A stretch of 64,000 bases of DNA, taken from contig NZ_CP063458.1 of assembly GCF_015169395.1 (NCBI RefSeq), forward strand, positions 1,922,001 to 1,986,000, given 5' to 3'. The notes under the pieces are model-generated. The model ran no database searches. It saw only the letters and a program-made list of their open reading frames with translations, and had not been told where the DNA came from. Shown here one piece after another: positions 41,109-63,421 of this stretch. The first letter of the stretch is position 1; every line of letters starts with the position of its first letter. The position numbers and the translations under genes were made by a program. Source of the stretch: Humisphaera borealis (GTDB lineage Bacteria; Planctomycetota; Phycisphaerae; Tepidisphaerales; Tepidisphaeraceae).

Positions 41109-43157
41109 ATGTGTATGTTCCGACGTTATGGCGAACAGTTCTGGGAAAACGAGTCGGCGAACCTGCCCGACAAACAAGCATCGCGCCGCTCGGCGCGACG
41201 CCAGGCCGTCCAGTCCCCGCGTGCCCGCGAGCTCCCGGTCGTTGAGATCGCCGGTGTCGAACTCCACGCCATCACCGAACAGCAGACCATCGATCACATC
41301 ATCGCCGAACTGAATGACGGTCGCGGCGGCGTTGTGGTTACGCCCAATGTCGATCACATCCGCCGGTGCACGCGGGATCTTCAGTTTCACGCAATGGTTT
41401 CCGAGGCCGACCTGGCCGTTCCCGACGGCATGCCGGTGATCTGGGCGAGCAAGATCGCCGGCACGCCCCTGCCGCAGCGCGTCGCCGGGTCCAGCCTGGT
41501 CTCCACCCTGTCGGGCGCGGCCGCCAAGGCGGGCAAATCGATCTTCCTTCTAGGCGGAGACCCCGGCGCGGCCGAGGGTGCCGCTAACGTTCTTCAGGAA
41601 CGCTTTCCGGGCATCAAGATCGCCGGTATCCACTTTCCGCCGTTCGGTTTCGAGAAAAACCGCGCGATGTGGAAGGAGCTCACCGACGCCCTCGAAGCGG
41701 CCAAGCCGGACATCGTGTATGTCGCGCTGGGTGCGCCCAAGCAGGAAATCACGATCTACAAGCTTCGATCGCTGCTCCCGAACGCCTGGTTCCTGGGTGT
41801 GGGTGTGTCGTTCAGCTTTCTGGCCGGGATGGTTTCGCGCGCACCGAAGTGGATGCAGAAGACCGGCCTGGAGTGGACGCACCGGCTGTTCCAGGAGCCG
41901 GGCAAGCTCTGGAAGCGGTACATCGTCGCCGGCATTCCGTTCGCGATCGGCCTGCTGAGCAGTTCGGCGATGCAGGGCGTGCCGAATCGGTTCCGTCGCT
42001 GGCGTTACGGGTCGCCCGACCGCGTCGTCGCTGCCCCCGTTTCCACTTTGCCGCCGGACGGCTCGGACCCCGCTCGATCCTCGTCCCTGACGGGCACCGG
42101 CACACCAACGGCCACTACGAGCCCCTCGTCCGCGGCAGGCGGTACCCCGTCGGAACAGACCACTGCAACGGCGAGCACGCCTTCCGTCCCACCGCCGCCG
42201 ACGACCCGCGTCGGCCGGCCTGTCACCCACAGCGTCGAAGACATTCTCAAGCGGCTGAGGGCGGTCATCCTGCTCGGCGGGTCGGTGCGGCCGAGCCCGT
42301 TGTCGGCCGCCGCCAGCCGATCGGTCCTCGACCTTCCGCTGGACGAAAACGGTTCGCTGCTGAACTTCTGGCTCGGCCAGTGTGCCGAGGTGGCGAAGCT
42401 CGCCGCCCTGGAAAAGCTGCCGATCCGCGTGCTCGTCAACCACGCCGCCCGCGAGCCGGTCAGCGCCGGCGAAAAGTACATGGGGCTCTTCCGGGTCGAA
42501 CGCGACCTGTCCGAATACCGCGGCACCGGCGGCGTGCTCCGCGACGTGACGGCCGAGTACGCCGAGGAAGATTTCGTCCTCGTCGCCAACGCCTGTCAGA
42601 TCCTGCTCGACCCGTTGTCGGCGATCACGCTGGCGCTGGCCCGCCAGGGCGGCGACGTCAACCTGCTGTCGCACGACGACGGGACGCCCAGCGGCGTACA
42701 GTTGCTTCAGTGCAAGACCGTCCGGCACATCAGCGAGGCCGGCTACCACGATATGAAGGAGCAGGCCCTTCCGGGCATCTCCGCGACGTACGACGTCAAG
42801 ATCATGCGCCACCGGCGGCCGACCGGCCTGCCCATCCGCACGCTCGAAGACTACATGATGGGCCTGCGGCTTTATCACCGCCGAAAGGCCGGCAAGCCTA
42901 TGGTGACCGATCCCCTGGCCGAAGACTGGACGCCGGCGTTTTCGCTGGTTGAGGCCGGGGCCAACGTGTCTCCGGCGGCCCGCATTCACGACTCGGTCGT
43001 GCTCGCCGGCGCCACCGTCGAGAGCAACGCCGTCGTCGTCCGCTCGCTCGTCTGCGGCGACGCGACGGTGCGGACGGAGCGGACGCTCGTCGATCAATAC
43101 GTCACCGCCGCGCCCAAGAACTTCCCGAACCCGGTTCCGGTGGCGGCGACGTGGTAA
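41109..43157 (+). CDS. WecG/TagA/CpsF glycosyltransferase fused to a nucleotidyltransferase-like domain
   Basis: A 682-residue two-part protein. Residues 40-290 are a WecG/TagA-type glycosyltransferase (ELHAITEQQTIDHIIAEL, VVTPNVDHIRRC, FLLGGDPGAAEGAANVLQE, VALGAPKQEITIYKLRS), which adds a sugar to a lipid-linked carrier. A Pro/Thr/Ser linker (about 305-370) leads to a second domain starting RLRAVILLGGSVRPSPL with LPLDENGSLLNFWL, GTGGVLRDVTAEYAEEDFVLV and, at the end, short hexapeptide-like steps (SPAARIHDSVVLAGATVESNAVV). That resembles mannose-1-phosphate guanylyltransferases with a left-handed helix. The canonical GGxGTR loop is absent, so activity is uncertain. It opens the five-gene exopolysaccharide/exosortase locus. 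Confidence 0.85.
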   Translation: MCMFRRYGEQFWENESANLPDKQASRRSARRQAVQSPRARELPVVEIAGVELHAITEQQTIDHIIAELNDGRGGVVVTPNVDHIRRCTRDLQFHAMVSEADLAVPDGMPVIWASKIAGTPLPQRVAGSSLVSTLSGAAAKAGKSIFLLGGDPGAAEGAANVLQERFPGIKIAGIHFPPFGFEKNRAMWKELTDALEAAKPDIVYVALGAPKQEITIYKLRSLLPNAWFLGVGVSFSFLAGMVSRAPKWMQKTGLEWTHRLFQEPGKLWKRYIVAGIPFAIGLLSSSAMQGVPNRFRRWRYGSPDRVVAAPVSTLPPDGSDPARSSSLTGTGTPTATTSPSSAAGGTPSEQTTATASTPSVPPPPTTRVGRPVTHSVEDILKRLRAVILLGGSVRPSPLSAAASRSVLDLPLDENGSLLNFWLGQCAEVAKLAALEKLPIRVLVNHAAREPVSAGEKYMGLFRVERDLSEYRGTGGVLRDVTAEYAEEDFVLVANACQILLDPLSAITLALARQGGDVNLLSHDDGTPSGVQLLQCKTVRHISEAGYHDMKEQALPGISATYDVKIMRHRRPTGLPIRTLEDYMMGLRLYHRRKAGKPMVTDPLAEDWTPAFSLVEAGANVSPAARIHDSVVLAGATVESNAVVVRSLVCGDATVRTERTLVDQYVTAAPKNFPNPVPVAATW

Positions 43158-43258: not shown

Positions 43259-44200
43259 ATGTCCACGGCATCGCCCAACCTCCTGTCGTACGCTTCGGCC
43301 TCGGTCAAACGCGGACCGCGGTTCCATCCGCTGCGTCGGCTGCGCATCGAACGGTGGACCTATTCCCACGCCGCCATGGCCGTCCTGATGGGCGCCCTTG
43401 GCGTCGGCGCGACCCTCGAAGCCTGGAAGGACATCTACGGGCTGGCGACCAAGGACTCGGAATACAGCCACATTTTCCTGGTGCCCATCGTCTCGCTCTG
43501 GATGATCTTTTCCCGCCGCATGCGCATCCGGCACTGCAAGCCGATCGGAACGCTCTTCGGCGTGCTGATCGCCGCCCTGGGGTGGGGCCTTTACACCTAC
43601 GGCTACTACAACGGCTACCAGACCATCTGGCACTGTGGCGCGGTGGTCGTCGTGATCGGCTGCATTCTGTCGGTCCTGGGCAAACACGCGCTATTCAGGT
43701 TTTTCCCGGCGATTGTCGTGCTCGTGTTTCTCATCCCCGTCCCGCCCCACCATCGCCTGACGATCGCTCAGCCGATGCAGGTCTGGACCGCGGAAGTTTC
43801 CGAAGCCGTGCTGACTCTATTCGGCGTACAGGTACAACGCTCGGGCAGCAACCTCCTGGTCAATAACGTTCCGGTCCTGATCATCGAAGCGTGCAACGGG
43901 CTTCGTGGCGTGTTCTCGCTGATCCTCGTCTCCTACGCGTTCAGCTTCGGACTGCCGCTGCGGAACTCCGTCCGCTTTATCGTTCTGCTCGCCAGCCCGG
44001 TCAGCGCCATCCTGTGCAACGTCATCCGCGTCGTACCGACCGCGTACATCTACGGCTACGCGTCGAGCCAGACCGGCTACTACCTTCACGAAGTGCTCGG
44101 CTGGCTGATGCTCCCGATCTCATTCATGATTCTGCTGGGTGTCATTCGCTTGCTCCGATGGGCGATGGTGCCCGTGATGAAGTACTCGTTAGCGGCGTAG
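43259..44200 (+). CDS. Exosortase
   Basis: A 313-residue inner-membrane protein with about eight spans. The exosortase catalytic residues are all present: Cys212 in IIEACNGLRGV, Arg257 in CNVIRVVPTAY and His277 in YYLHEVLGW. Exosortases are transpeptidase-like enzymes that process proteins with a C-terminal PEP-CTERM-like signal and usually sit in exopolysaccharide loci. It begins 101 bases after the WecG-fusion gene and is followed by epsI. Subtype cannot be fixed by eye. Confidence 0.95.
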   Translation: MSTASPNLLSYASASVKRGPRFHPLRRLRIERWTYSHAAMAVLMGALGVGATLEAWKDIYGLATKDSEYSHIFLVPIVSLWMIFSRRMRIRHCKPIGTLFGVLIAALGWGLYTYGYYNGYQTIWHCGAVVVVIGCILSVLGKHALFRFFPAIVVLVFLIPVPPHHRLTIAQPMQVWTAEVSEAVLTLFGVQVQRSGSNLLVNNVPVLIIEACNGLRGVFSLILVSYAFSFGLPLRNSVRFIVLLASPVSAILCNVIRVVPTAYIYGYASSQTGYYLHEVLGWLMLPISFMILLGVIRLLRWAMVPVMKYSLAA

Positions 44201-44250: not shown

Positions 44251-44943
44251 ATGCGTTCCTTTCTCTCCATCATCGCCGGTCCGGGACTTTGCCTGGGGAT
44301 TCTGTCAGGCATCGTCTGGGAGAACGGTCGGCACACGAAGCCGGCGGATGCCGAGCCGTTCCACGCCGCCGCCAGGTCGGCAGTGGACGCCTGGCCGCGG
44401 ACGGTCGGCGACTGGACCGGGCGCGACGTCGAACTGCCGCGGGCCGCGATTCAGCTGCTCAAGCCCAACGCCCACTTTTGCCGCACCTTCTACAACACCC
44501 GCGAACGCAACCGGCCGCCCGTCAGTCTCCTGGTCGTCCAATGCCGCGACCCGATCGACATGAGCGGCCACTACCCGCCCAACTGCTACCCCAACAACGG
44601 CAAGCCCCAGGTCTGGGAAGCGGAGCGCAAATGGACCATCCCCGGCGAGGACAAGCCCATCCGCGGGATGGAATACCACTTCGAATCCGGCAGCATGCTC
44701 CACCCGCAGCGGACCGTCGTGTACAACTTTTTCGTCCTGCCGGGCAAGGGCGTCGTCGCCGACATGCAACAGGTTCGCGACGCCAGCGGCGACTTCCAGC
44801 GACGCCACTTCGGCGCCGCGCAGGTCCAGGTGGTGTTCGAGCAAGGCGACGTCCTGGAGCAATCGCGTCGCGACGAGATATTCACGACCCTGATCGGGGC
44901 GAACCCGGGTGTCCTGTCGGCTTTGTCCTCTGTGACGAAATGA
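44251..44943 (+). CDS. EpsI-type exosortase-associated protein (DUF3485)
   Basis: A 230-residue protein with an N-terminal signal anchor (RSFLSIIAGPGLCLGILSGI) and a periplasmic domain. The conserved order is AWPRTVGDWTGRDVELP, a Cys/Tyr-rich turn with SLLVVQCRDPIDMSGHYPPN, then PQVWEAERKWTIPGEDKPIR and VVYNFFVLPGKGV. This is the EpsI domain, often fused to or next to exosortase; here it is a separate gene 50 bases downstream. Its biochemical role is unknown. Confidence 0.9.
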   Translation: MRSFLSIIAGPGLCLGILSGIVWENGRHTKPADAEPFHAAARSAVDAWPRTVGDWTGRDVELPRAAIQLLKPNAHFCRTFYNTRERNRPPVSLLVVQCRDPIDMSGHYPPNCYPNNGKPQVWEAERKWTIPGEDKPIRGMEYHFESGSMLHPQRTVVYNFFVLPGKGVVADMQQVRDASGDFQRRHFGAAQVQVVFEQGDVLEQSRRDEIFTTLIGANPGVLSALSSVTK

Positions 44944-45203: not shown

Positions 45204-47480
45204 ATGAGCAACGAGATCCAAGTCTCCTCGTTCGGCGGCGCAGGCCTGCCAATGCAACCGGGAATGCCCGGTATCGGCGGCGGGCTGGGCGGCTACTACG
45301 GCGGCACCCAGACCCCACCGACCGACGACAGCCCCTTCAAGAAGCTGCATCGCCTACTGCGCGGTCGCTACCTGCTGGCGTTCGTGCTCGGCTTTCTCGG
45401 TGCCGCTGCCGGCGCCGTCGCCGGCTACATTAGCCAGAAGCCGGCGTTCAAGGCCGAGGGCATGATCGAGATCAAGCCCATTATCAGCAGTGCCGACCCG
45501 ACCAAAAACGAGAGCGTCATGGTGATGTTCTCGTCCTACGTGAACTCGCAGATGGCCCGCCTGCAGAGCGACGTCATCGTCAAGCAGGCGATGAAGGACC
45601 CGCGCTGGCAAGCCGTCCGCCCCGGCCCGGTGACCGATGCCGCAGTCGCCGCGTTCGCCGAAAAACTCACGATCGCGCTGCCGCCCCGCAGCAACACGAT
45701 CATCGTCGTTGGCTACGCCGACAACGCGCCCGACACTCAGAAAGTCGCCCCCGCCGCCATCCAGTCGCTGCTCGACGCCTATTACGGCGAGTACAACAAG
45801 GACGACACCCTCAAGATCGAAGCCCGTATCAAGAACGCCGAGAACAACGACCGCGACATCAACAACCAGATCGCCGCCAAGCGCGCCCTGATCCAGAACC
45901 TTTCGAAGGTCAGCGACGGCGACCCGACCCAGCTCCGGTACTACGAGCAGGAACTGGTCGAGAAGGAAAAGGAACTGTCGCTGCTCCGTGAGGCGATCGC
46001 CGCCGTCAAACAGGCCGGCTCCGGCACGTTCGCCAAGCCCGCGGTGGAGGACTGGGCCCGTGTCGATGGCACGATGGCGAGCAAGGTCAAACTGCGCGAC
46101 GACCTGGCGCTGATCATCGGCAACCTCGCCGCCCAGCTCGGACCGAACCACCCGCAGGTCCTGAGCCGCAAGCGCGAACTCGACGCACTGGTCGCGTACA
46201 TCGACCAGATGGCCGCCACCCTCGAAACCCGCTACGTCATCCGTCTGAATGTTGACGGCTCCGGTCACCTGGTGCCCAAGGACATCACCGCGATGACCGA
46301 GATGGAAAAGCGGCTGGCCGCGGAAATCCAGAAGAAGCAGACCGGCGTGCAGAACCTCCGCGAAGTCGCCGCCCAGATCGAGTCGGCGAAGTTCGAAATC
46401 CGCTCGCTCGGCGGGCGCAGCGAACAGATCGCCCAGGACCTGCGCGATCTGCGATTCGTCCAGCAGAACACGGTGCTGGCAAAGGTGCTGAACACCGGCT
46501 CGGTCGCCAAGCCCGACAAGGACCGCCGACCCGTCTTCGCCGCCATCGGCTTCATGGGTGGCGCGTGCATCCCCATCGGCCTGCTGCTGCTGTTCGGGCT
46601 GCTCGACACCCGCTACCGCTACAGTGACGAGACGTCGGCGAGCGTCGGCGGGACCGGCCCCGGCGGGCTCACGCTGCTGGGCATCCTGCCGAACCTGCCC
46701 GACCGCCTGAGCGACCCCGAGCAGGCCGCGATCGCCGCCCACTGCGTCCACCAGATCCGCACCATGCTGCAGATCAACGCCGGCATGGAAGACCGCCGGG
46801 TCTTCGCGGTCACCAGCGCCAGCCCCGGCGACGGCAAGACGAGCCTGTGCCTGGCGCTGGGCCTGAGCTACGCCGCCTGCGGCACCCGCACCCTGCTGAT
46901 CGACTGCGACCTGATCGGCTCCGGCCTGAGCAGCCGCATGAACGTCAACGCCCCCGAAGGCGTGCTCGAAGCGATCACCAACCGCACGCTGCTGCCGTAC
47001 GTCCGTCAGACCGACGTCAACGACGTCTCGATTCTGCCTTGCGGATCGGCGAGCAATCTTCATGCGAGCACCCTTTCGCCGCAGTCGCTGCGCCGGCTCA
47101 TCGAAGAAGCCGAACAGCACTACGAAGTGATCCTGATCGATACCGGCCCGATCCTGGGCAGCATCGAAGCCTCGCTGGTCTGCGCCGCCGCCGATGCCGT
47201 CATCCTGACCGTCGCCCGTGGCCAGCAGCGGCCGATGGTCGAACGCTCGCTCGGACACCTGCAGGCGATCGGCGCCAAGCTGGCCGGCGTGGTGTTCAAC
47301 CGTGCCCAGGCCCAGGACTTCGAACGCAGCATCAGCGGCGTGTCGATCCGGTCGGTCGGCGTCCCGGGAATGCCCCGCGGCGCACGCCCCACCGGCCCGC
47401 GCCTCGGACCCGTCGCCCGCGCCGTCCAGGGACAGCCCAACGAAGCCCCGTCGGAAGAAACCAACGGAGACGGACATTGA
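45204..47480 (+). CDS. Wzz/Wzc-like chain-length regulator with BY-kinase-like ATPase
   Basis: A 758-residue inner-membrane protein. A Gly/Pro-rich N-terminus precedes span 1 (about 52-73). A periplasmic region with two coiled-coil segments (about 85-430) and span 2 (about 447-470) follows. The cytoplasmic part has Walker A SASPGDGKT (539-547), Walker A' LLIDCDLIGS and Walker B VILIDTGPI. This is the Wzc/CpsD-fusion layout that controls polysaccharide chain length. The C-terminal Tyr cluster of true tyrosine kinases is absent; the tail is Pro/Arg-rich, so kinase activity is doubtful. Confidence 0.9.
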   Translation: MSNEIQVSSFGGAGLPMQPGMPGIGGGLGGYYGGTQTPPTDDSPFKKLHRLLRGRYLLAFVLGFLGAAAGAVAGYISQKPAFKAEGMIEIKPIISSADPTKNESVMVMFSSYVNSQMARLQSDVIVKQAMKDPRWQAVRPGPVTDAAVAAFAEKLTIALPPRSNTIIVVGYADNAPDTQKVAPAAIQSLLDAYYGEYNKDDTLKIEARIKNAENNDRDINNQIAAKRALIQNLSKVSDGDPTQLRYYEQELVEKEKELSLLREAIAAVKQAGSGTFAKPAVEDWARVDGTMASKVKLRDDLALIIGNLAAQLGPNHPQVLSRKRELDALVAYIDQMAATLETRYVIRLNVDGSGHLVPKDITAMTEMEKRLAAEIQKKQTGVQNLREVAAQIESAKFEIRSLGGRSEQIAQDLRDLRFVQQNTVLAKVLNTGSVAKPDKDRRPVFAAIGFMGGACIPIGLLLLFGLLDTRYRYSDETSASVGGTGPGGLTLLGILPNLPDRLSDPEQAAIAAHCVHQIRTMLQINAGMEDRRVFAVTSASPGDGKTSLCLALGLSYAACGTRTLLIDCDLIGSGLSSRMNVNAPEGVLEAITNRTLLPYVRQTDVNDVSILPCGSASNLHASTLSPQSLRRLIEEAEQHYEVILIDTGPILGSIEASLVCAAADAVILTVARGQQRPMVERSLGHLQAIGAKLAGVVFNRAQAQDFERSISGVSIRSVGVPGMPRGARPTGPRLGPVARAVQGQPNEAPSEETNGDGH

Positions 47481-47632: not shown

Positions 47633-49153
47633 GTGAGTAGTCACGCGACGCATATGAGGCTCGTCGATCCCAAACCCGCCGCGCTCCCCGTCCGGGCGGC
47701 CCTCGCCGAGCCGGACCTGGTGCCGGCAGGCCAAGCCCTGCCCGGCAACGCCGCCGGCCGCACCATCTGGGGTTTTGACGCGCTTCAGCTTCATAACCGT
47801 TACTGGGCAAGTTTCGGCGTGCAGGTCGTCCGCCAGGGCGAACCGAGCGAGATCGTCACCCACGCCGAGCTCTACCTCCTCACCGACCCGAACACGCTCA
47901 CGCTTTTCCGCCTGTCCCGGCTGATGGACACCCTGAACTGGGTCGAACCGACAGCGTTGTTCGTCCGGCTGCATGACGCCAATGAGCGCGGCTACCGCGA
48001 GAACACCGTCGTCGATGCCGACGGCAAGTTCGTCCGCTTCCAGCGCGTCTACGCCGCGTCGCGCAGCCAGACGCGCATCGTCCTGACACCCGATCGCGAA
48101 GTAGCCCAGCTCTGGCAGTCGTCGCCCGATCCGCAGACCGCCTGGCGTCGGCTCCGCCGGTTCGCCAAGCGCATCGAGCGGGCCACCTCCAGCATCGACG
48201 GCAACGTCTACGACCGGCACGACGAGCGCGACACCACCTGGTTCGTGCACGACCTCCTTCAGGTCTGGAAACACCCGGATACCACGGTCATGCGTGCCCG
48301 CAAGGTCGAGGTCAGCCGCGGGGCGACCGTCTGGCGCGACGCCCAGTGCAAGGTCGATCCCGGCGCGACATTCATCGGCCCGGTCTGGGTCGGTGCTGGC
48401 CGCATCGTCCCGGCCGGCCAGACCGTGATCGGCCCCGCCGTCGTCTGGGACGACCCCTCGCGCCGCCCGGTCAACGATGTCATCTCCTGGCTGAACATCG
48501 AGCCGCGCGACATCCCCGAAGACCCGCAGGTGCGTGATTCCTCCCTCTTCGGCAAGGCGGTCAAGCGAACGTTCGACATCATCCTGGCCCTGATCGGCAT
48601 GATCTGCTCGGCACCGATATACCCGTTCGTCCTGCTGGCGATCTGGCTCGAAGACGGCCGGCCTTTCTTCTTCGGGCACACCCGTGAGACGCTGCATTCG
48701 CGTGAGTTCAAGTGCTGGAAGTTCCGCTCCATGCGGAAAGACGCCGAGAAGATGAAGGCCGAGCTCAAAGCCAAGAACCAGGCCGACGGTCCGCAGTTCT
48801 TCATGGAGAACGACCCGCGTCTGACCCGCGTCGGGCGGTTCCTCCGCAAGTACAACCTCGACGAGTTCCCGCAGTTCTGGAACGTGCTGGTCGGCGACAT
48901 GAGCTTCGTCGGCCCGCGCCCCAGCCCGCGCGCCGAAAACCAGTACTGCCCCGCGTGGCGCGAAGCCCGCTTGAGCGTCCGCCCCGGCATCACCGGCTTG
49001 TGGCAGGTCAACCGCACCCGCCGCGCCGGAACCGACTTCCAGGAGTGGATCAAGTTCGACATCGAGTACGTCGAACGCCGCAGCTTCTGGCTCGACATCG
49101 TCATCATCTGGAAGACCTTCGCGAACGTGTTCTTCAAGATCAGCCGCAAGTAG
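47633..49153 (+). CDS. Priming sugar-phosphate transferase with a nucleotidyltransferase/helix-like N-terminus
   Basis: A 506-residue membrane protein starting at GTG (an in-frame ATG is at 47654). Residues 310-505 are a bacterial sugar transferase of the WcaJ/PglC class: KRTFDIILALIGMICSAPIY (one span), KCWKFRSMRKDAEKMKAEL, NDPRLTRVGRFLRKYNLDEF, PQFWNVLVGDMSFVGPRPSP, RPGITGLWQVNRTR. It would load the first sugar-phosphate onto undecaprenyl phosphate. The N-terminal 300 residues lack the usual multi-span region. Instead they have a soluble domain ending in hexapeptide-like steps (VSRGATVWRDAQCKVDPGAT, FIGPVWVGAG), much like the tail of the WecG fusion. Confidence 0.9.
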   Translation: MSSHATHMRLVDPKPAALPVRAALAEPDLVPAGQALPGNAAGRTIWGFDALQLHNRYWASFGVQVVRQGEPSEIVTHAELYLLTDPNTLTLFRLSRLMDTLNWVEPTALFVRLHDANERGYRENTVVDADGKFVRFQRVYAASRSQTRIVLTPDREVAQLWQSSPDPQTAWRRLRRFAKRIERATSSIDGNVYDRHDERDTTWFVHDLLQVWKHPDTTVMRARKVEVSRGATVWRDAQCKVDPGATFIGPVWVGAGRIVPAGQTVIGPAVVWDDPSRRPVNDVISWLNIEPRDIPEDPQVRDSSLFGKAVKRTFDIILALIGMICSAPIYPFVLLAIWLEDGRPFFFGHTRETLHSREFKCWKFRSMRKDAEKMKAELKAKNQADGPQFFMENDPRLTRVGRFLRKYNLDEFPQFWNVLVGDMSFVGPRPSPRAENQYCPAWREARLSVRPGITGLWQVNRTRRAGTDFQEWIKFDIEYVERRSFWLDIVIIWKTFANVFFKISRK

Positions 49154-51025: not shown

Positions 51026-51168
51026 TTGAAACCTGTATGAGGTCAGTGCGGGCGGCGCCGCGAGGTTCAGTTCAGAATCCGGGTCTTCGCGGAGTACCGC
51101 TCAGACTCGGCGTGGGGAAAACCATCGATATCGATTGTTTAGATGAGTTTCGCGATGGATGAATCTCG

Positions 51169-51777: not shown

Positions 51778-51963
51778 GAAAGTTATCGGCCGGGATACAA
51801 CAGAGGGTAAGCGCGTCGGTGACGGCCAGCAGCCGTCAGTTCAATCGTATCGCAGGACGGGTCCCATAGGTGGCCCTGACGGCACAATTGTGCCCGGCCA
51901 AAGACAGGATTTCCGGCGATCTTTTGCGCTCCGCGCGTCTCACCCTGGCAAAAGGAAACGTTC

Positions 51964-53262: not shown

Positions 53263-53278
53263 GTAGTGGAAACTGAAA

Positions 53279-53557
53279 ATGAGCACGAAGCCAGACGATT
53301 CCACCTCTGAACCACGCGAACGATCCTGGTTGATCGCGCTCCTGCTCGTCGCAATTTGCATTGCGATCATTCCGCTCGGGCTCGGTCTCCTTTTCCTGTA
53401 CTACGCACTTGTCATTGGCATGGAGGGTTCAACGGGAGCATTAAAACTAGGACTCGTTCTCGTTGCGGCATCAATCGTTTGGGCCATCTTTTTCGGTTGG
53501 CTGAAGCAATGGCTGGCAGCGCGAGGCAGCCTTGGTTCTGACCACCGTATTCTGTAG
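53279..53557 (+). CDS. Small membrane protein, unknown
   Basis: A 92-residue protein with two spans (about 18-42 and 55-75) and charged termini. It begins 16 bases after the SGNH hydrolase stop, so the two may be co-transcribed. No family recognised. Confidence 0.55.
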   Translation: MSTKPDDSTSEPRERSWLIALLLVAICIAIIPLGLGLLFLYYALVIGMEGSTGALKLGLVLVAASIVWAIFFGWLKQWLAARGSLGSDHRIL

Positions 53558-53578
53558 GAACTCCTCCCACAATCGCCT

Positions 53579-53610
53579 TCCCGCGCGCCGGCAAATACCG
53601 GCGCGCGGGA
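53579..53610. terminator. Bidirectional terminator between convergent genes
   Basis: Perfect 13-bp GC-rich arms (53579-53591, 53598-53610) with a six-base A/T loop lie between the ends of a plus and a minus gene. No U-tract. Confidence 0.7.
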
Positions 53611-53622
53611 CGCGACTTGCCA

Positions 53623-55008
53623 TCAATACTCCCGCGTCTTCGTGCCCGGCTGGGGCTGCGGGTACATGCCCTTGGCGTCGGCGACCACCGGGGCCGGCGA
53701 ATCCTTGGTCAGGGCGTCGATACCCGGGGCGAACTCGTGCTCGGAATTGAGCATCTGGTCGAACGTCACTTCCAGTCCGGTGTGCGCCGCCATGCGGCCC
53801 ATGCTGGTGACCAGGCTCGCCTCGACGCCGCGCTTCACCTCGTTGTACGGCTTGTCCTGAAGGATCGCCTCCATCAGGTCGTCCCATTCGTTCTGGTACG
53901 GGTGGGTCTTGTCGGTCGATCGCCAGATGAGGTTGTCATCGTCCGGCGTCTGGCCCTTGAAGAGGCTGGCCGGCAGGCCGCAGTCGCCGCTCTTGCTGGC
54001 GATCGCCGATCCCTTCGTGCCGTGGATAAAGCTGTGGTAGATCGTCGGGCACTTGTCGATATACCGCCCGTCGAAAATCATCTTCGCGCCATCGGCGAAG
54101 GTGTATTCGATGCCGTAGGAGTCAAAGTTCTGGTCGATGTACGGCGTGCCGTCGTCGGCCGCCTTGACGTGCCGCCCGCCGACGCCGATCGCCTTGACCG
54201 GCCAGGCGTTCTTCATCCAGCTCAGGTGGTCGATGATGTGAATGTTAAAGTCGCTGAAGCATCCGCCGCTGGCCCACAGGAAGCTGTGGAACCGGCGGAC
54301 CTGGAACTCCAGCTCGCTCATGTTGGCGGGTTTGGGGGTGGAGCGCATCGAGCCGACCGGTGCGTGCATGCGGTAGCCGCGCATGAGCAGGATGTCGCCG
54401 ATCGCGCCGTCGGTGATCCGCTTGTTCAGTTCCTGGAGGTGCCGGGCGTGGCGCGACATCAGGCCGACGCCGACCTTCAGGTTCTTGGCCGAGGCTTCCT
54501 CGGCGAGTTTCAGCAGCCGGCGGCTCTGGGCGCCGTCCGACGACAGCGGCTTTTCCATGAACACGTTGAGCTTCTTCTCGATCGCATAGGCGAAGTGCGT
54601 GGCGCGGAACGCCAGCGGCGTCGCGAAGATCGCCACGTCGCCGGGGCGGAGCGTGTCGAGGGCGGCCTTATAGGCGTCCCAGCCGATGAACTTGCGGTCG
54701 TTGGTGATCTTCACCTTGTCGGCGACGCTGCCTTCGCCATTGAGCCGCTTGAGCGAGCCCTCCAGGCGGTCGGAAAACGCGTCGGCCATCGCGACGAGGC
54801 GGGGGTTCATGCCCTTGGATTTGAGGGCGTCCATCGCCGCGCCGGTGCCGCGGCCGCCGCAGCCGACCAGCGCGATCTGCACGTTGGAGTCGCCCGCCGC
54901 ATGAACGGCCGGCACGATCATGCCGGCGACCGCCGACGCGACGGCGAACTGGCCGACCTTAATGCCGAGTTGCCGGCGGGAAAGTTGCGCGTTCTCGTTG
55001 ATGTTCAT
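53623..55008 (-). CDS. Tat-exported Gfo/Idh/MocA-family oxidoreductase
   Basis: A 461-residue NAD(P)-dependent sugar oxidoreductase. The start at 55008 has GGAGGA eight bases upstream. Residues 10-35 form a twin-arginine signal (LSRRQLGIKVGQFAVASAVA). The Rossmann motif is IALVGCGGRGTGA, and the cofactor/catalytic helix is NVFMEKPLSSDG with the EKP motif. Then come DFNIHIIDHLSWMKNAWP and YGIEYTFADGAKMIFDGRYI. Such exported members, expanded in planctomycetes, probably act on complex sugars in the periplasm. It is divergent from the sulfatase gene. Confidence 0.9.
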   Translation of the reverse strand: MNINENAQLSRRQLGIKVGQFAVASAVAGMIVPAVHAAGDSNVQIALVGCGGRGTGAAMDALKSKGMNPRLVAMADAFSDRLEGSLKRLNGEGSVADKVKITNDRKFIGWDAYKAALDTLRPGDVAIFATPLAFRATHFAYAIEKKLNVFMEKPLSSDGAQSRRLLKLAEEASAKNLKVGVGLMSRHARHLQELNKRITDGAIGDILLMRGYRMHAPVGSMRSTPKPANMSELEFQVRRFHSFLWASGGCFSDFNIHIIDHLSWMKNAWPVKAIGVGGRHVKAADDGTPYIDQNFDSYGIEYTFADGAKMIFDGRYIDKCPTIYHSFIHGTKGSAIASKSGDCGLPASLFKGQTPDDDNLIWRSTDKTHPYQNEWDDLMEAILQDKPYNEVKRGVEASLVTSMGRMAAHTGLEVTFDQMLNSEHEFAPGIDALTKDSPAPVVADAKGMYPQPQPGTKTREY

Positions 55009-55214
55009 CGAATCCTCCGAAAATCGAACTGAGTGAGATGACGTTTGGACGACCGCTAATCTACCGCGAGCCGCAAGCGGATGCACCAACCGCCGCGTAC
55101 GCCGACCGCAACAGACATTCGCCGTCGGCAAGACGTGACGGCACGCCGGCGGCGTTCATGCATCATGCCGTCATCATGCAAAACATTGGCAGGCCTGCGG
55201 CGTTGAAGTGACGC

Positions 55215-57095
55215 ATGAACGGACTTCACCCCATCGGAACGCAAACCCTGCCCCGCTTCGCCCTGCTGCTGGGGTTCGTCGTATGTCTGGCCGCGTCGGC
55301 CCGGGCGGCCGATGCGCCGCCCAATATCTTGCTCATCTATTCCGACGACCACGGCTGGGCCGATCTGGGTGCCCAGGGCGTCAACGGTGACATCCGCACG
55401 CCGAATCTCGATCAGTTCGCCAAAGACGGCGTCCGGTTCGCCCGCGGGTATGTGACCGCACCGCAGTGCGTGCCGTCGCGGGCGGGCGTTTTGACGGGGC
55501 GATACCAGCAGCGGTTTGGTGTCGAGGACAACAACAAGGGGCCGCTTCCACTGGCAGAGGTGACGATCGCCGAGCGGCTCAAGGCGGCGGGTTACATCAG
55601 TGGCCAGGTCGGCAAGTGGCACCTGGATCATGGTGGTGAAAAAGGTGCCGGCGAGAAGGGAGCCGCCGGCAAAGCTGCCGGCATGCTTCGCGAGCACATG
55701 CCGCACGGCCAGGGGTTTGACGAATACTTCCGTGGCGAACGCGGCCAGTACTACGCCTCGCACGATCTCAAGGGACAGCCGCTGGCCGATGCGCCGCAGT
55801 TGATCACCGACAACCGGTTTCGGGTGGTCGTGCAGACGGACGCGGCGATCTCGTTTCTGGATCGCCGGTCGGCCAAGCCGCAGCAGCCGTGGTTTCTTTA
55901 CCTGGCGTGGTTCGCGCCGCACGTTCCGCTGGAGTCGGCCGAGCCCTGGTTCAGCAAAACGCCGGAAAGGCTGCCGCTGGTGCGGCGGCAGGCACTGTCG
56001 ATGATCGCCGGGATGGATGACGGCCTGGGCCGTATTCGCCGAAAGCTTGCCGAGATGGGCGTGGAAAAGAATACGCTGATCTTTTTCATCGGGGATAACG
56101 GCGCGCCGCTCAAAACCGGGGCGTGGAACGGATCGGTGAACCTTCCGCTGATCGGGGAGAAGGGCATGCTGACCGACGGCGGCATCCGTACGCCATTTGT
56201 CGCGGCGTGGCCGGGCAAGCTCGCGGCCGGACAGGTGTATGAGCACCCCGTCAGCAGCCTGGATGTCGCCGCCACCGCGGCAGCGCTCGCGGGGCTACCG
56301 AAGGACGACAAGCTGGACGGCGTCAACCTGATTCCGTACCTGACCGGGCAGAACAAAGCCGCGCCGCACGAGGCGCTGTATTGGCGCTGGCGCTCCCAAG
56401 CCGCCGTGCTCGAGATGCCATGGAAGCTGGTCGCACTGGGTCCGACCGAGCGGTATCTCTTTGACGTCACTCAGCCGGATGGCGAAACGAAGAACCTGCT
56501 GAAGGACAAACCCGAGGTCGCTTCGCGACTGGAGGCCAAGCTTAAAGCTTGGAGCGCCGGTTTGAATCCGCCGGGCCTTCCGACCGAGGTTCATCCGCAG
56601 GATCAGTTCTTTTTCGAAGACCACCGGCTTTCTCCCAAGCCCGCCGGTGCAGCCGTACCGACTGCCAAACCCGCCGACGACTGGCTGTGCCGCAACGGCA
56701 CCCTTGCCGTTCGCGACGGGGCGATGTCGATCACGCCCGATACGAACGCCGCCAAGAACGCCCGCGTGTTCATCGCCAAGGCAGGCCTGGAAGTTCCCGG
56801 CCCGGTGACGATGAAACTGCTCGCCCGCGCCAAGCGAGGCGGCGCCAGCAATGTCACCTGGCGTCTGAACGGCCAGAAGGATTTCCTTCCGGAGCAGTCG
56901 GCGTCGTTCGACTGGCCGGCCGGCGACCAGTGGCGGGAGGTCAAGGTGGAGTTGCCCGCTTCGGGCAAGCTGATCCACCTGCGCATCACCCCAGACAAAG
57001 ACGCGAGCGGCCTGGAGATCCGGTCGATCGAGTTGGTCGGCAAAGACGGCGCGCGTAAGATCTGGTCGTTCGGACCGGCGAACCCCGCCGAATGA
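55215..57095 (+). CDS. Secreted type I sulfatase
   Basis: A 626-residue protein with a signal peptide (cleavage near ARA, residue 31). Asp44/Asp45 (IYSDDHGWADLG) bind calcium. The formylglycine site is Cys85 in QCVPSRAGVLTGRYQ, matching C-x-P-S-R, so an FGE maturase is needed. Other sulfatase stretches are GKWHLDHGGEKG and LIFFIGDNGAP. The chain after about residue 480 is a separate beta domain (DDWLCRNGTLAVRDGAMS) that may bind sugar. The substrate, probably a sulfated polysaccharide, cannot be named. The next gene overlaps its stop by four bases. Confidence 0.93.
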   Translation: MNGLHPIGTQTLPRFALLLGFVVCLAASARAADAPPNILLIYSDDHGWADLGAQGVNGDIRTPNLDQFAKDGVRFARGYVTAPQCVPSRAGVLTGRYQQRFGVEDNNKGPLPLAEVTIAERLKAAGYISGQVGKWHLDHGGEKGAGEKGAAGKAAGMLREHMPHGQGFDEYFRGERGQYYASHDLKGQPLADAPQLITDNRFRVVVQTDAAISFLDRRSAKPQQPWFLYLAWFAPHVPLESAEPWFSKTPERLPLVRRQALSMIAGMDDGLGRIRRKLAEMGVEKNTLIFFIGDNGAPLKTGAWNGSVNLPLIGEKGMLTDGGIRTPFVAAWPGKLAAGQVYEHPVSSLDVAATAAALAGLPKDDKLDGVNLIPYLTGQNKAAPHEALYWRWRSQAAVLEMPWKLVALGPTERYLFDVTQPDGETKNLLKDKPEVASRLEAKLKAWSAGLNPPGLPTEVHPQDQFFFEDHRLSPKPAGAAVPTAKPADDWLCRNGTLAVRDGAMSITPDTNAAKNARVFIAKAGLEVPGPVTMKLLARAKRGGASNVTWRLNGQKDFLPEQSASFDWPAGDQWREVKVELPASGKLIHLRITPDKDASGLEIRSIELVGKDGARKIWSFGPANPAE

Positions 57096-57943
57096 TCCGC
57101 GAATGGCTTCGATCGATCGCAGGAGGCGTTTTGCAAACCGACCCTCGCAACCCCGTCACGTCGCGGCGAACTGCACTGCGGGGAATGGCGGCGCTCGCCG
57201 CCGGTGCCGGTCACGTTTGGCCGGCGTTGCTCGCAGCCGAAACGCCACCCCAGGTCGAACTGCCGACCCTGACGGACAAGGTCGATCCGCAGCCGGGAAG
57301 CCTGCACCTGTGGCACCTGTACGAGTTTCCCTTCGAAAACGCGCGCGTGGGCGAACGGATCAACATCGTCGCCCGGAGCAAGGCCGGAACAAACGACTTG
57401 GCGCTCCTCAGCCCGCCGTGGGTGACGGTCAGCTTCGACCGCCAGCCCCCCGCCGGTGGCGAGCGTGGAGCGACGTATCAGGCATTCGGCTTTGCCGCCG
57501 AGGCGATCAAGGGCATCGACGACGACGGATTGGTCGGCGTCAGCGGGGTCATCGAGGTGAATCGTCCCGAGCTTTCCACCGACGAAAAGACCGCCAAAGA
57601 CCTCCACATCTTTCGGCTGTCCGAGGTTCGCGGCGGACCCATCCGGCTGAAACGATCGATCCGGCAGATGAACGATGACGTTCCGGGAATCGTCCGGGCG
57701 TCGGAGGGCCGTCTGATCGACCTGTGCAAACGGCACTCGCTGAAGTACGACTACGACCCCAAGTCGCTGGCGTGGTCGTGGTACGCCGGTCGGCTGGCAT
57801 TCACGACGATCTGCACGAAACACCCCGTGTTCAGCTTCAAGCCGGTGCCGTACGCGACGCTGAGCGTGCTGTTCGACCCCGCCAAGGGCACGGCGGTCGA
57901 GTTGATCTTCATGCGTCGCACCTGGCAGGACCCGCGCGATTAA
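57092..57943 (+). CDS. Tat-exported unknown protein coupled to the sulfatase
   Basis: A 283-residue protein whose ATGA start overlaps the sulfatase stop codon, so the two are translationally coupled. Residues 24-40 form a twin-arginine signal (SRRTALRGMAALAAGAG). The mature chain has LWHLYEFPFENARVGERINI, LLSPPWVTVSFDRQPP and WSWYAGRLAFTTICTKHPVF, and looks beta-rich. I do not recognise the family. Coupling suggests it helps the sulfatase work or act on the same polysaccharide. An alternative start is further in, but the signal would be lost. Confidence 0.65.
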   Translation: MIREWLRSIAGGVLQTDPRNPVTSRRTALRGMAALAAGAGHVWPALLAAETPPQVELPTLTDKVDPQPGSLHLWHLYEFPFENARVGERINIVARSKAGTNDLALLSPPWVTVSFDRQPPAGGERGATYQAFGFAAEAIKGIDDDGLVGVSGVIEVNRPELSTDEKTAKDLHIFRLSEVRGGPIRLKRSIRQMNDDVPGIVRASEGRLIDLCKRHSLKYDYDPKSLAWSWYAGRLAFTTICTKHPVFSFKPVPYATLSVLFDPAKGTAVELIFMRRTWQDPRD

Positions 57944-57972
57944 CACCACCCGCCGGCACGATTCCGGCCGTT

Positions 57973-58000
57973 GCCGTGCGCGGGTCCCGCGCGGCTTTTT
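57973..58000 (+). terminator. Terminator after the sulfatase unit
   Basis: A palindrome GCGCGGG-T-CCCGCGC inside a wider stem GCC...GGC is followed by five T. It lies 29 bases after the stop of the Tat-exported gene. Confidence 0.6.
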
Positions 58001-58125
58001 CCCCCCGCCTAACGCATCTCGACCAAACGTCCGATAAACTATCAAGCGACGTGTGGAGACGGTCTGCGCCTCTCTCGCGCCTGGATGGAACCACGGACGG
58101 ACCTGCAGTTTAATTGCTGATCAAC

Positions 58126-61100
58126 ATGAGCCTTCGAGCCAAGACCAAACGCCGTCTCCTGCTGCTTATCGGGGTTTGCCTGCTGGCGGGAGCGGCGGCA
58201 TTCTGGATCTTCCGCAATCCCGGCATGGCAAACGCCGCCCAGACCGCCGAACTGCGCCGTTCCGCGATGGCCGACTATGCGAAGAAGGACTACCTGACGG
58301 CGATGCCAAAGCTCAGTCAGTACCTGTCCGAGATCAAGATCAACCAGAAGGAGCCATCGGACGAAGAGCTCGAGGCGTTGTTCGCATTCGGGGACTGCCG
58401 GAGCCGGATCACCATGCCCCGGCAACAGCATTTGCGGGAGGCGAACCAGGCCTTTGAGCGATACCTCAGCTACCGCCCCAACGACGCGGCGGCGCAACTG
58501 GCCCACCTGAAGGTCCTGAGCAAGACGCCACAATTCAACGACGCCAAGAGCCTGGCCGAACGCATCCTGGAACGCGACCCGAAACACGTCGAAGCACTGT
58601 TCATTCGGGCGTACAGCATCTATCGCCTGCCCAAGCCCAAGCTCGACGATGTCGAAAGCGCTATCACCGACCTGCTGAAGGTTGACCCCGGTCATGTGAA
58701 CGGCTTGCTGCTGTCGCAGCAGATCCAGTTGCAGCGCGGCGCTTCTCCTAGGCAACTGATCGATCGGATCGAGCCGCTCGCCCGGGCCGACGACAAGGAC
58801 CCGAGATTCGAGCTGGTCGCCGCCGAAACCTATCACATGCTCGCGCTGAGCGACGCCGGCAAGGCTGACCCCGTCATGCGGGCCGAGTGGGACAAGAAGG
58901 GCCGGGAGTGGCTCCTGAAGGTGGTGGAACTGCCGCCGACGAACGCCGAGTTCGCGATTATGGTCGGCTCGTCGCTCGACCGGGTGATGATGGTCTCGCG
59001 GACGCTGCGCTATCTCATGACGGCGGTCGACGCGGCCCGCCCTGACGACGAGAACCAGGAACGGCTCCGCGAGTCGCTGATCCGCCGGCTCTGGCAGAAC
59101 AACGTCTACGCCGAGGTCATCCAGCGGACCCAGGGCCTGGACCCGGCCGACAACCACACCGATGCCGACCTGCTGGCGTATCGGGCGATCACGCTGACGG
59201 CGCAGGCGGCGTCGCCGTCGGCGGGCGAAGACCGCACCCGGCTGCTGAACGAAGCCGATGCGATCACCCGCGCCCTTCGCGCCCGGACCGCCAGCCACGA
59301 GGCCCAGGCCTGGGCAATCCTGCTGAAGCTCGACAGTGGCGAGCCCAAGGCCGCGTCCGAAGTTGTCCGCCGTTGCCTGGAAGCCCGCGAAAAGAACCCA
59401 GACAACGCCGTCGTCGCCGTCCGCCTGGCCGACGCCTACGCGCAGCAGGGGGAAACCGAAGCCGCCGTGCAGATGTGGACCTGGGCCGCCCGGATGTCGC
59501 CGGACTGGGGCTACCCTTACGCCCGCATCGCGGCGCTGCGGTTCGAAGAAGGACGGCTCGAAGAGGCCGAGCGGCTGGCCGACCGGGCGCGGCTGCTCGC
59601 GCCGACGAACCGTCAGTTCGTCGCGCTGCTGGCGCAGACGCGGTACGCGGCAATCCCGAAGAATGCGAACCCGGCCACGCTCGCGACACAGTTGGAGGAC
59701 ATCGAACGCGTGCAGAGCGCGTATCCGTTCGAGTCCGGCACGCTTCCGCTTCAGGTGACGCTGCTGGCCCGCATCAAGGGACTCGACGCGGCAAAGGCTC
59801 GCCTGGCCGAGGCGCTGGCGGCGAAGCCGCCGCTGTCGGTCGAGACGCTCCTGCGGCTCAGGACCACCAGCGACACCGAGAAGCTCGCGATGGACGAGCA
59901 GATCATCGCGGCGATCGGCACCCGCGACGGCGCCGCCCTGCCGATGGCCGCGCACCAGGCCCGAAAACTGCTGACTGATGGCAAGGCCGCCGAGGGGCTC
60001 AAGGCCCTGACCGACGCCCGCAAAGCCGCCGGCGGCGAGACCGACCCGCGCTGGCTGCTGGCGATCGCCGCCTACCAGGAAGAGGCCGCCGACCCGCGGG
60101 CCCCGCAGGCTTGGGCCGAACTCGCCGCCCGCACCCCCGACGACCTGTACTACCAGACGCAGATCCTCCGATCTCAGACCCGCTACCGCGATCGCGATCT
60201 CTGGCGGGTGACCATCGACCGTGTCCGAACCCTGACCGGCGACGAAGGCACGCTCTGGAAGCTCGAACGCGCCCGCTGGCTGCTTGCCGGCACCGAATCC
60301 GACAAGGACCGCTCTGAAGCGATCGCACTGCTCACCGAGCTCACCCAGCGCAACCGCGACTCGGCGGAGGCCCGTCGTCTCCTGGGGTTGGCGTTGGCCG
60401 GCGACCGCAAGTTCTCCCGCGCCGCCGAAGAACTTGCCGGCGCACTGCAGATGGCCCCCTCGCGCGGCGACATCGGCCTGGAACTGATCGACGCGCTGCG
60501 TAAGGCCGGCGATCTGGCCGGTGCGCGGACGCGCATCCGCGAAGTCGCCGCGATCCCGTCGCTTACCCCGGCCCAGCGCCTGCGCATCGCCGCCGCCCAC
60601 GAAGACCTCGGCCAGCAGCCCGAGGCAATCAAGGTGCTGCAGTCGTTGCCCGAAGGCGGCGAGCGCGACGCCCGGCTCGGCTCGTTGTTCCGCGCAAACG
60701 GTCAACTGGACGAAGCGATCCTCGCTTACAAGCGCGTGCTCAATGACGTGACGGCCAACCCGGAGCACATCTTCGCCGGCGCCGATTTCTTCGCCGCCAC
60801 CGGTGATTTGAAGCAGTCGCAGTACTTCCTGGATCGGCTCCAGACGATGCCGCAGTCGCGTGCGACGACGGAGATGCTGCTCGGCCAATTCGCCGAGAAG
60901 TACGACCGCGCCGACGACGCACTGGTCCACCTGAAGAAAGCGACCGAGCTGGAACCGAAGAATCCGCTGGCATGGAAGGCGCTGGGCGGGTTTTCGCTGC
61001 GGTCGCGGAAGTATGACGCGGCGATGTCGGCGGTCGATGCGGGCCTTGCTGTCGCCCCGGCAGACCCCGATCTGACGGCGCTCAAGCCGCTGATCACGAC

Positions 61101-62478
61101 CGTGCGCAAGCTGTTTGACGTCGAACCGGTCCGGCTGCTGGTGGACTTTCTCAGCCGCCAGCCCACCCACCCCGCCGCCAACGCCACGCTCAAAGTGCTC
61201 GCCGAAGGACAGGCGGCACTGATGGTGACACCTCAGGAGAAGCAGTCCGCCGTCGCCCTGGCGACAATGCAGAAGCTCGCTACGCTCGCCGAGGAGTACC
61301 GGGACTTCTGGCCGCTCCAGGAACGCGTGATCCACTTCTATCTCACGCAGAAGCGTCCGGACAAGGCGGCGGAACTCGCCGAGCGCGGGACCGCGCTCTC
61401 CCCTGCCCTGGCCGATCCGCCTCGACTTGCGTCCGAGTGCTACATGCGGCTGGGCCGCTGGGACAAGGTGGCCGAGGCCGCGACCATCTGGCGGCAGCGG
61501 GCGGCGGGCGACCCGATGCCCGCCGACCTGATGATCGCCGGCGCGATGCTCGCCAAGCGCCAGCCCGCCGTCGCGTCGCGTGCGCTCGAGCCGCACGTCC
61601 TTGCGCGTCCCCTGCCGGCAACCTACTCGGAGAAGTCTCCGCTGGACGTCCGCGTGCTGACGCTCTACCAGACCTACGGGCGAGCCCTGATCGAACAGGG
61701 CCGCGCCGCCGAAGCCGCCGAACGCCTGGCGCCGCTCCTTAAGCTCAACGACGACTGCCGCAGCATCTGGCTTTCCCTGGCCGTCACGTTCAAGGACGAA
61801 AAGTCGGCACAGGAATGGATCGACCGGGGCGCTGCGGCGTTCCCGGCGCTGCCGACGATCGTCGATCAGCTCTCCCTCGCCGAGGCGTGCCTCGCCGCCG
61901 GCCGGCCGACCGGATCGGCCGAACTGCTCGGCCGCGCCGCCAAGGTGCTGCAACCGCTGGCTACGGCTCCCAAGCCGCTGCCCGAGGCGCTGCGACTGGC
62001 CGCGTTGACCGCACACTTTCAAGGGGACTACATTCGTTCCGAACAGTTCTGGCGTGCGCTGCGAAAAACTCAGAACTCGCCGGAAGTAGCGAACAACCTC
62101 GCGTATGTGCTGCTCCTGTCGGGCCGGTCGCAGGTGCTTGCCGAGGCGCACCAGCTGGCTGTCGAAGCAACCACCGCCGACCCGGAGAATCCGGTGTACC
62201 TCGGTACGCTCGCCCGTTCGCACGCACGTCAGGGGGCTCGGGCGGCGGCGATCGAGGCATTCCGAAAGGTCCTGGCGCGCGACAGCCAGAATGTCGAATC
62301 GATGCTCGGCCTGGCCGAGCAGATTGCCGGCTCGACGCCGGCCGAGCGTTCGGAAGCGCGGAAGTTGTTGAGCGAGGCGAGGACGATCATGGCGACGAAC
62401 CCGCAAATGTCCGACCCCGAACTCAAGCGGCAGGCCGACAGTCTTGGGGCGCTGGTCGAGCCTGGCGGCAGTCGCTGA
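58126..62478 (+). CDS. Very large TPR-repeat protein, membrane-anchored
   Basis: A 1450-residue protein with a span at about 11-32 (RRLLLLIGVCLLAGAAAFWI) and then tetratricopeptide-like helical repeats almost to the end. Typical units are VVAVRLADAYAQQGETEAAV, YARIAALRFEEGRLEEAERL and YIRSEQFWRALRKTQNSPEV. This resembles the PrsT-like and other giant TPR scaffold proteins of exopolysaccharide systems, which help assemble the export apparatus. No catalytic motif was seen. The start at 58126 is ATG; a TTG at 58114 is also in frame. A long antisense frame covering this gene is rejected. Confidence 0.85.
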   Translation: MSLRAKTKRRLLLLIGVCLLAGAAAFWIFRNPGMANAAQTAELRRSAMADYAKKDYLTAMPKLSQYLSEIKINQKEPSDEELEALFAFGDCRSRITMPRQQHLREANQAFERYLSYRPNDAAAQLAHLKVLSKTPQFNDAKSLAERILERDPKHVEALFIRAYSIYRLPKPKLDDVESAITDLLKVDPGHVNGLLLSQQIQLQRGASPRQLIDRIEPLARADDKDPRFELVAAETYHMLALSDAGKADPVMRAEWDKKGREWLLKVVELPPTNAEFAIMVGSSLDRVMMVSRTLRYLMTAVDAARPDDENQERLRESLIRRLWQNNVYAEVIQRTQGLDPADNHTDADLLAYRAITLTAQAASPSAGEDRTRLLNEADAITRALRARTASHEAQAWAILLKLDSGEPKAASEVVRRCLEAREKNPDNAVVAVRLADAYAQQGETEAAVQMWTWAARMSPDWGYPYARIAALRFEEGRLEEAERLADRARLLAPTNRQFVALLAQTRYAAIPKNANPATLATQLEDIERVQSAYPFESGTLPLQVTLLARIKGLDAAKARLAEALAAKPPLSVETLLRLRTTSDTEKLAMDEQIIAAIGTRDGAALPMAAHQARKLLTDGKAAEGLKALTDARKAAGGETDPRWLLAIAAYQEEAADPRAPQAWAELAARTPDDLYYQTQILRSQTRYRDRDLWRVTIDRVRTLTGDEGTLWKLERARWLLAGTESDKDRSEAIALLTELTQRNRDSAEARRLLGLALAGDRKFSRAAEELAGALQMAPSRGDIGLELIDALRKAGDLAGARTRIREVAAIPSLTPAQRLRIAAAHEDLGQQPEAIKVLQSLPEGGERDARLGSLFRANGQLDEAILAYKRVLNDVTANPEHIFAGADFFAATGDLKQSQYFLDRLQTMPQSRATTEMLLGQFAEKYDRADDALVHLKKATELEPKNPLAWKALGGFSLRSRKYDAAMSAVDAGLAVAPADPDLTALKPLITTVRKLFDVEPVRLLVDFLSRQPTHPAANATLKVLAEGQAALMVTPQEKQSAVALATMQKLATLAEEYRDFWPLQERVIHFYLTQKRPDKAAELAERGTALSPALADPPRLASECYMRLGRWDKVAEAATIWRQRAAGDPMPADLMIAGAMLAKRQPAVASRALEPHVLARPLPATYSEKSPLDVRVLTLYQTYGRALIEQGRAAEAAERLAPLLKLNDDCRSIWLSLAVTFKDEKSAQEWIDRGAAAFPALPTIVDQLSLAEACLAAGRPTGSAELLGRAAKVLQPLATAPKPLPEALRLAALTAHFQGDYIRSEQFWRALRKTQNSPEVANNLAYVLLLSGRSQVLAEAHQLAVEATTADPENPVYLGTLARSHARQGARAAAIEAFRKVLARDSQNVESMLGLAEQIAGSTPAERSEARKLLSEARTIMATNPQMSDPELKRQADSLGALVEPGGSR

Positions 62479-63025
62479 AATGGGCCTGTCGTTTTCCCCC
62501 GCAATGCCCGATTGGTGCTTACCGGACGGCAAAATACCCGGTTTCCGCCCAGTTCCTACGCTCGCGCGAGCCTAACGCAACTAGGCGATGGCCATCAGGC
62601 GGGCGTTAATTCCCTGTAAAAGCGACAGTAACGCGGTTTTTCGCATTCCCGCAAGATTCATTCAAGCCGGCACCCGATTTGCTCCCCGTCTAATGCAAAG
62701 ATTTCGTGACCGACGAACATTACGTGTGGCAACGGATGCAAACTTGGTTTACGATTATCGGGACATCTGAAGTTTTAAGGTTGTCGCGAAAGCAGGTCGG
62801 CATATTGCAATGACGTGGGTCGCAGTGATGCTCGGACGCAAAACTGCGTAAGTCGTTGCCGGATTCTGACACGAAAGGGTGCGAGCAATCCAGCATTTTG
62901 CGATGCGTGGTGGTTCGCCAACGTGTTTCTTGTGTGAACTCGACAACAGTCGATTGCCGTCGACCTATGTCGATTTTTGTTGTACGGCCCTCTCGGGCCT
63001 ATTCGGAAGGGAGTTGATCGACGCG
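62479..63025. other. Long regulatory region before a small secreted protein
   Basis: 547 bases without a supported gene. A sigma-54-type promoter lies in the first half. Close to the next ATG a five-base GGCCC/GGGCC hairpin precedes the GGAAGGGAG ribosome-binding site and could influence translation. Confidence 0.55.
62668..62683 (+). promoter_or_regulatory. Sigma-54 promoter of the candidate exosortase substrate
   Basis: CGGCAC-CCGAT-TTGCT fits the consensus TGGCAC-N5-TTGCT at all but the first base, with GG at 62669-62670 and GC at 62681-62682. PEP-CTERM/exosortase genes are commonly under sigma-54 with the PrsK/PrsR pair. The leader would be about 330 bases long. Confidence 0.6.
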
Positions 63026-63421
63026 ATGGTGCGCCTGATCGACAAGAAAATGGACGTTTCTTACTCCACTAGATTCGCGATTGTCATCGCGTGGCTCGTT
63101 CTCCTATTCGTTGTTCCTGCCGTCGCTGTTGCCGACGCCGCTCCTTCGATCTCGCCTCTTAACGATGAGCCTGCTTCCCTCGTAGACCCGGTGATCGCCC
63201 CGATCGATGAAACGCCTGTCGTCGTCGACGGTACACTTCTGGACGACCTGGCACTTCAGACCGCGTTCCTGCCGGATACGCAGGCGGGCGAATCGATCAC
63301 CCCAGTACTCCAAACCACCTCGGCCCCGGTACTGATCGCCGCCCGACCGGCTTTCTGGTCGGCCCTGCCGCTGCTGTTTGTCGTGCTGCTGCTCCCCAAA
63401 CTCCGTCGCATCCTCGCCTGA
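63026..63421 (+). CDS. Small secreted protein with exosortase-like C-terminal anchor
   Basis: A 131-residue protein. From ATG 63026 (GGAAGGGAG 13 bases upstream) residues 1-9 are basic-polar, 16-35 are hydrophobic (AIVIAWLVLLFVVPAVAV) and cleavage is likely near ADA. A low-complexity Pro/Asp/Thr/Val segment (about 40-105) follows. The end is a hydrophobic stretch after ARPAFWSALPLL, closed by KLRRILA. A signal peptide, linker, C-terminal span and basic tail is the PEP-CTERM architecture, though the exact VPEP motif is replaced. An exosortase is in the same window. It has no other likeness I can name. Confidence 0.65.
   Translation: MVRLIDKKMDVSYSTRFAIVIAWLVLLFVVPAVAVADAAPSISPLNDEPASLVDPVIAPIDETPVVVDGTLLDDLALQTAFLPDTQAGESITPVLQTTSAPVLIAARPAFWSALPLLFVVLLLPKLRRILA

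Follow-up and report, generated by a model that had tools for sequence, protein, structure and literature searches.

P0001, a candidate sigma-54-transcribed exosortase substrate with a divergent PLPxAxW-type tail, encoded beside a prsT-like gene in Humisphaera borealis

The 64,000-nt stretch of the H. borealis genome analysed here (the window) contains an exosortase locus and a small gene, P0001 (63026..63421, + strand), whose 131-aa product combines a signal peptide-like N-terminus and a low-complexity middle with a tripartite C-terminal tail. Is this protein a substrate of the window exosortase, and if so, by what signal would it be recognised and how would its gene be transcribed? A first-pass annotation made from the sequence alone had proposed a sigma-54-driven substrate with ARPAFW as a variant sorting signal, a proposal whose general idea proved largely correct but whose details proved wrong.

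The gene itself is as first described, a 131-residue frame that opens like a signal peptide and ends in an ARPAFW-span-KLRR tail. Its ATG is preceded by a purine-rich, ribosome-site-like stretch (GGAAGGGAG), and the frame uses codons in a coding-like manner (+0.11 bits/codon, where the highest of 1000 shuffles reached −0.44 and all other frames were negative), with a weaker codon bias in the N-terminal half. A longer start (GTG at 62879) was rejected, as the in-frame upstream extension is non-coding in codon usage (−0.51). By inspection, the N-terminus resembles a signal peptide (KKMDVSYSTRF, a hydrophobic stretch and AVAVA-DAAPS), and the C-terminal signal (LIAARPAFWSALPLLFVVLLLPKLRRILA including the stop; 63332..63421, + strand) reads ARPAFW-SALPLLFVVLLLP-KLRRILA, with the motif, the transmembrane span and the basic C-terminus all present. 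P0001 returned no match to PEP-CTERM (TIGR02595/PF07589), either in a genome scan at E<=10 or in Pfam and NCBIfam scans, and none to VPLPA-CTERM (TIGR03370). Full-length homologues were found neither in its taxonomic family, including one same-genus genome (65 % complete), nor in GTDB genome contigs, where the prsT-like query likewise returned no match.

The genes of interest upstream of P0001 all lie on the + strand. The exosortase locus encodes a WecB/TagA/CpsF glycosyltransferase (41109..43157), the 313-aa window exosortase (43259..44200), an EpsI-like protein (44251..44943; TIGR02914 27.7 bits, below the cut-off of 42.8), a chain-length/tyrosine autokinase protein (45204..47480) and an undecaprenyl-phosphate sugar phosphotransferase (47633..49153). 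Directly upstream of P0001 lies the gene for a 1454-aa PrsT-like TPR protein (58114..62478; TIGR02917 124 bits, below the cut-off of 312), a gene that is linked to the exosortase in relatives; the end of mnmE lies downstream, on the opposite strand. The exosortase scores over the cut-off only for the superfamily signature exo_archaeo (TIGR04178, 45.7 bits vs 23); with no model of a named type does it reach the cut-off (e.g. the XrtA model TIGR03109, 115 bits, cut-off 208). Cys212, Arg257 and His277 of the enzyme are conserved in four aligned sequences. In the interval from the sugar phosphotransferase gene to the prsT-like gene (49500-58000), translations read by eye indicated esterase-, oxidoreductase- and sulfatase-like genes; in most relatives, just 7-10 kb separate the exosortase from the prsT-like gene.

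Eight relatives encode, directly after the prsT-like gene, a signal-peptide protein ending in a [VI]PLPxAxW-span-basic tail. Within the family of P0001 these prsT-adjacent tails are of VPLPPAVW-, VPLPTTFW-, VPVAPAAW-, VPLPAGAW- or IPLPSAA- type, and several of the proteins are small like P0001 (114-183 aa) and carry no recognisable domain. A profile of these tails revealed more prsT-adjacent genes in three genomes (G010, G011 and G012) as well as dispersed genes elsewhere. The first-pass annotation had named the absence of any other such C-terminus from the genome as refuting its proposal; searches of the genome with profiles and patterns instead yielded tail relatives at four other, dispersed loci. 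One PLPxAxW protein of this genome is encoded at 3647113-3647208. We define the class as [VI]P[LV]P-x-A-x-[WY], followed by a span and basic residues. All tested tails stay below the curated thresholds of NCBIfam and Pfam; [VI]PLPxAxW is apparently an uncatalogued sorting tag. We also noted, in genome G003 (L190 on C8, minus strand 826-491), a 111-aa protein that looks like the N-terminus of the PrsT-like protein followed by a VPLPPAVW tail, such as a deletion fusing prsT with the adjacent tail gene might leave.

Against this family motif, ARPAFW itself is not supported as the signal: P0001 is an outlier without VPLP. Its tail (PAFW...LRR) aligns with the family (LIAARPAFWSAL over LVPLPPAVWQGL) such that it retains Pro-Ala-x-Trp and the basic LRR end but has lost VPLP. 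That VPLP might be encoded in another frame of P0001 was ruled out by eye. With the main profile, built from 42 tails and excluding P0001, the protein ranks best among all window frames (E 0.003; next unrelated frame 1.5); its score of ~12-12.7 bits falls within the range of the PEP tails of the same genome, which reach 16.5 bits, and its assignment therefore depends on position, promoter and tail pattern in combination. Judged on these sequence features, P0001 is probably a divergent member of the PLPxAxW class, the most divergent of the locus-linked ones, and is perhaps decaying.

The closest catalogued pairing is that of VPLPA-CTERM (TIGR03370) with XrtD (TIGR04152), which shares with the PLPxAxW tails a VPLP motif, a transmembrane span, a basic end and an exosortase partner. 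However, the best of ten PLPxAxW tails scores 13.1 bits against TIGR03370 (cut-off 25.35), the PLPxAxW-x-G-L pattern is distinguished by a conserved Trp, P0001 itself lacks VPLP, and the window exosortase reaches 95 bits against TIGR04152 (cut-off 400). PEP-CTERM (TIGR02595/PF07589) has the tripartite C-terminal design in common with these tails; yet their best score against PF07589 is 17.9, below the Pfam cut-off of 20.7, and the phylogenetic profiles of the two differ.

Does the tail class follow the exosortase? A genome counted as window-type if its top match to the window exosortase had E<=1e-45 (next best genome, 1e-31). Matches to the main tail profile (E<=1e-4) occur in 27 of 198 genomes of the taxonomic class, and all fall among those with a window-type exosortase (27/53 vs 0/145, p 7e-19), the genomes being non-independent samples. 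As the profile was derived from family f1, the independent part of this count is the genomes outside f1, where tails occur in 11/35 with a window-type exosortase and in 0/142 without (p=4e-9); within family f5 alone the figures are 7/9 and 0/13. The remaining 26 window-type genomes have no detectable PLP tails, and the pairing is thus incomplete; genomes such as G144 and G190 carry the window type alone and still show no PLPxAxW tails. The suggestion that the window exosortase reads a variant signal is supported as far as a non-PEP class tied to exosortase type is concerned, but not for ARPAFW as its motif.

The genome of P0001 has two exosortase systems, and the second exosortase is longer than that of the window. 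The second locus (G000:C1:4120633-4122753; L120:8633-10753) encodes a 706-aa exosortase, a 315-aa partner, a 1564-aa TPR protein and a chain-length protein. The same genome encodes ~44 canonical PEP-CTERM proteins, P0001 not among them, which are probably served by this second locus. In three genomes with the second exosortase type only (G002, G004 and G007), PLP tails are absent but canonical PEP-CTERM hits number 35-99; such abundance of PEP-CTERM alongside the second exosortase alone points to two signals for two exosortases, and the PLPxAxW and PEP signals probably belong to different enzymes. A pair of open frames, each of 4032 residues and ending in the same PEP-CTERM tail, lie 3.25 Mb apart (G000:C1:781284 and 4032537; L022 and L023) and are probably a recent duplication.

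Upstream of P0001, the promoter read in the first pass as one base off TGGCAC-N5-TTGCT was recovered at 62668..62683 (+ strand; CGGCACCCGATTTGCT, CGGCAC-N5-TTGCT), with one mismatch to TGGCACN5TTGCW and the correct GG-N10-GC spacing. It is the only site with <=1 mismatch in the whole window, where shuffles give 1.77, and this chance-level count makes it unconvincing from the window alone. Over the 7.19-Mb genome there are six perfect consensus sites, a number that we estimate from base composition to be about chance level. The sequence-based case for sigma-54 control becomes credible only by comparison with relatives, four of which carry a site at the equivalent position between prsT and the tail gene. 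Counting that of P0001, 5/9 prsT-to-tail intergenic regions have a -24/-12 site at <=1 mismatch (expected, 0.08; never above two in 2000 simulations), and two of the five, both in relatives, are perfect (TGGCACCTCGGTTGCT and TGGCACCGCGGTTGCT). The other 4/9 prsT-adjacent tail genes lack a site. Distal tail genes show no -24/-12 enrichment, nearly all being without a site (one weak exception). Those PEP-CTERM genes of the same genome that could be checked have none upstream. Among tail genes, the putative sigma-54-type site is seen for the prsT-adjacent gene only.

The statement that exosortase substrates are known to be under sigma-54 holds for Proteobacteria, to which the literature we found is confined: -24/-12 sites precede 99/167 proteobacterial PEP-CTERM genes (Haft et al., PMC1569441), and in Aquincola tertiaricarbonis, pepA, an exosortase substrate gene that adjoins prsT and has a -24/-12 promoter, as proposed for P0001, depends on RpoN and has had its start site mapped (PMC9850573). 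Aquincola pepA differs from P0001 in being proteobacterial, in encoding a true PEP-CTERM protein, in lying upstream of prsT and in the presence of PrsK/PrsR (PMC9850573), whereas P0001 lies downstream of its prsT-like gene. The genome encodes RpoN (TIGR02395 372 bits, cut-off 277) and seven enhancer-binding proteins, none near the P0001 locus; in a scan of six of the seven against PrsR (TIGR02915), the best scored 374 bits, below the cut-off of 502.6. A search of the regions preceding the -24/-12 sites found no enhancer motif in common. From the -12 element to the P0001 ATG there are ~342 nt, compared with a reported 23-221 nt in proteobacterial PEP-CTERM genes (PMC1569441), and the predicted 5′ leader (62695..63025, + strand, ~331 nt, its start placed from the -12 element) is longer than in those genes and in Aquincola pepA (PMC9850573). 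It matched no family in an Rfam scan and folds only mildly more strongly than shuffles (z −1.6).

Taken as a whole, with a probability of roughly 0.6, we read P0001 as a prsT-adjacent, locus-encoded substrate of the window exosortase that would be transcribed by sigma-54 polymerase. The sequences show the gene, the site, the tail, the locus, the conserved catalytic residues, the recurrence of site and tail class in relatives and the joint occurrence of tail class and exosortase type. We counted in its favour the tail protein after prsT in eight relatives, the sites at 5/9, the split of 27/53 vs 0/145, the first rank of P0001 among window frames, the presence of RpoN and the Aquincola precedent (PMC9850573); against it, we counted the low profile score, the loss of VPLP, the lack of an ortholog in the searched genomes, the long leader, the lack of a PrsR-level regulator or shared enhancer site, and the sites missing at 4/9 and at distal genes. 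Under this reading, sigma-54 RNA polymerase, presumably activated by an enhancer-binding protein encoded elsewhere, would transcribe P0001 while the exopolysaccharide system is in operation. The signal peptide would export the product, and the C-terminal helix and basic tail would hold it in the inner membrane, where the window exosortase may cleave at the PLPxAxW-type motif, the divergent ARPAFW version presumably still being recognised, and transfer the product to the envelope or to the exopolysaccharide layer.

The loss of VPLP, the weak tail-profile score and the weaker codon bias in the N-terminal half would also fit a former substrate, i.e. a decayed prsT-adjacent gene, now a small bitopic membrane protein that still uses the old promoter; we consider this unlikely, however, as the frame is unbroken, its codon usage is coding-like and the sigma-54-type site, PAxW and basic end are retained. 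Less probable again, P0001 is simply a small protein that spans the inner membrane with two helices and has no sorting role, its tail likeness and promoter being coincidental: a hydrophobic C-terminus with basic residues is a common topology and the -24/-12 site is at chance level in the window, but several relatives share the locus position and are similar in length and tail pattern, and the sites recur. That the second exosortase (4120633-4122753), rather than that of the window, handles P0001 and the PLPxAxW proteins is very improbable; the best NCBIfam match of that enzyme is indeed the VPLPA-specific XrtD, albeit far below cut-off, but the tails are missing from all genomes with only that type, including G002, G004 and G007.

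The planctomycetes of the class to which H. borealis belongs may, in a broader view that we lean towards, run two parallel exosortase systems, with PEP-CTERM for one and the uncatalogued PLPxAxW for the exopolysaccharide-linked window type, the latter with a sigma-54-controlled prsT-adjacent substrate, and P0001 marking the extent of signal drift. Little is understood about exosortases, whose specificity is approached mainly through pairs of signal and enzyme; a tail class, apparently uncatalogued, that goes with one of two exosortases present together would allow specificity to be tested directly in one cell. On the sites reported here, control of exosortase substrates by sigma-54 would extend from Proteobacteria to planctomycetes.

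Sites of the -24/-12 type were also noticed before other genes in relatives. In G016 (L135:3224), the prsT-like gene is followed by a dnaK-like gene with a perfect site 61 bp upstream. In G020 and G021, a TGGCGCN5TTGCA site is conserved before the glycosyltransferase heading the exosortase locus (L123:3652 and L143:6662), and a block ~60 nt upstream of it (TTTTGCCTTGTTT) is conserved in both.
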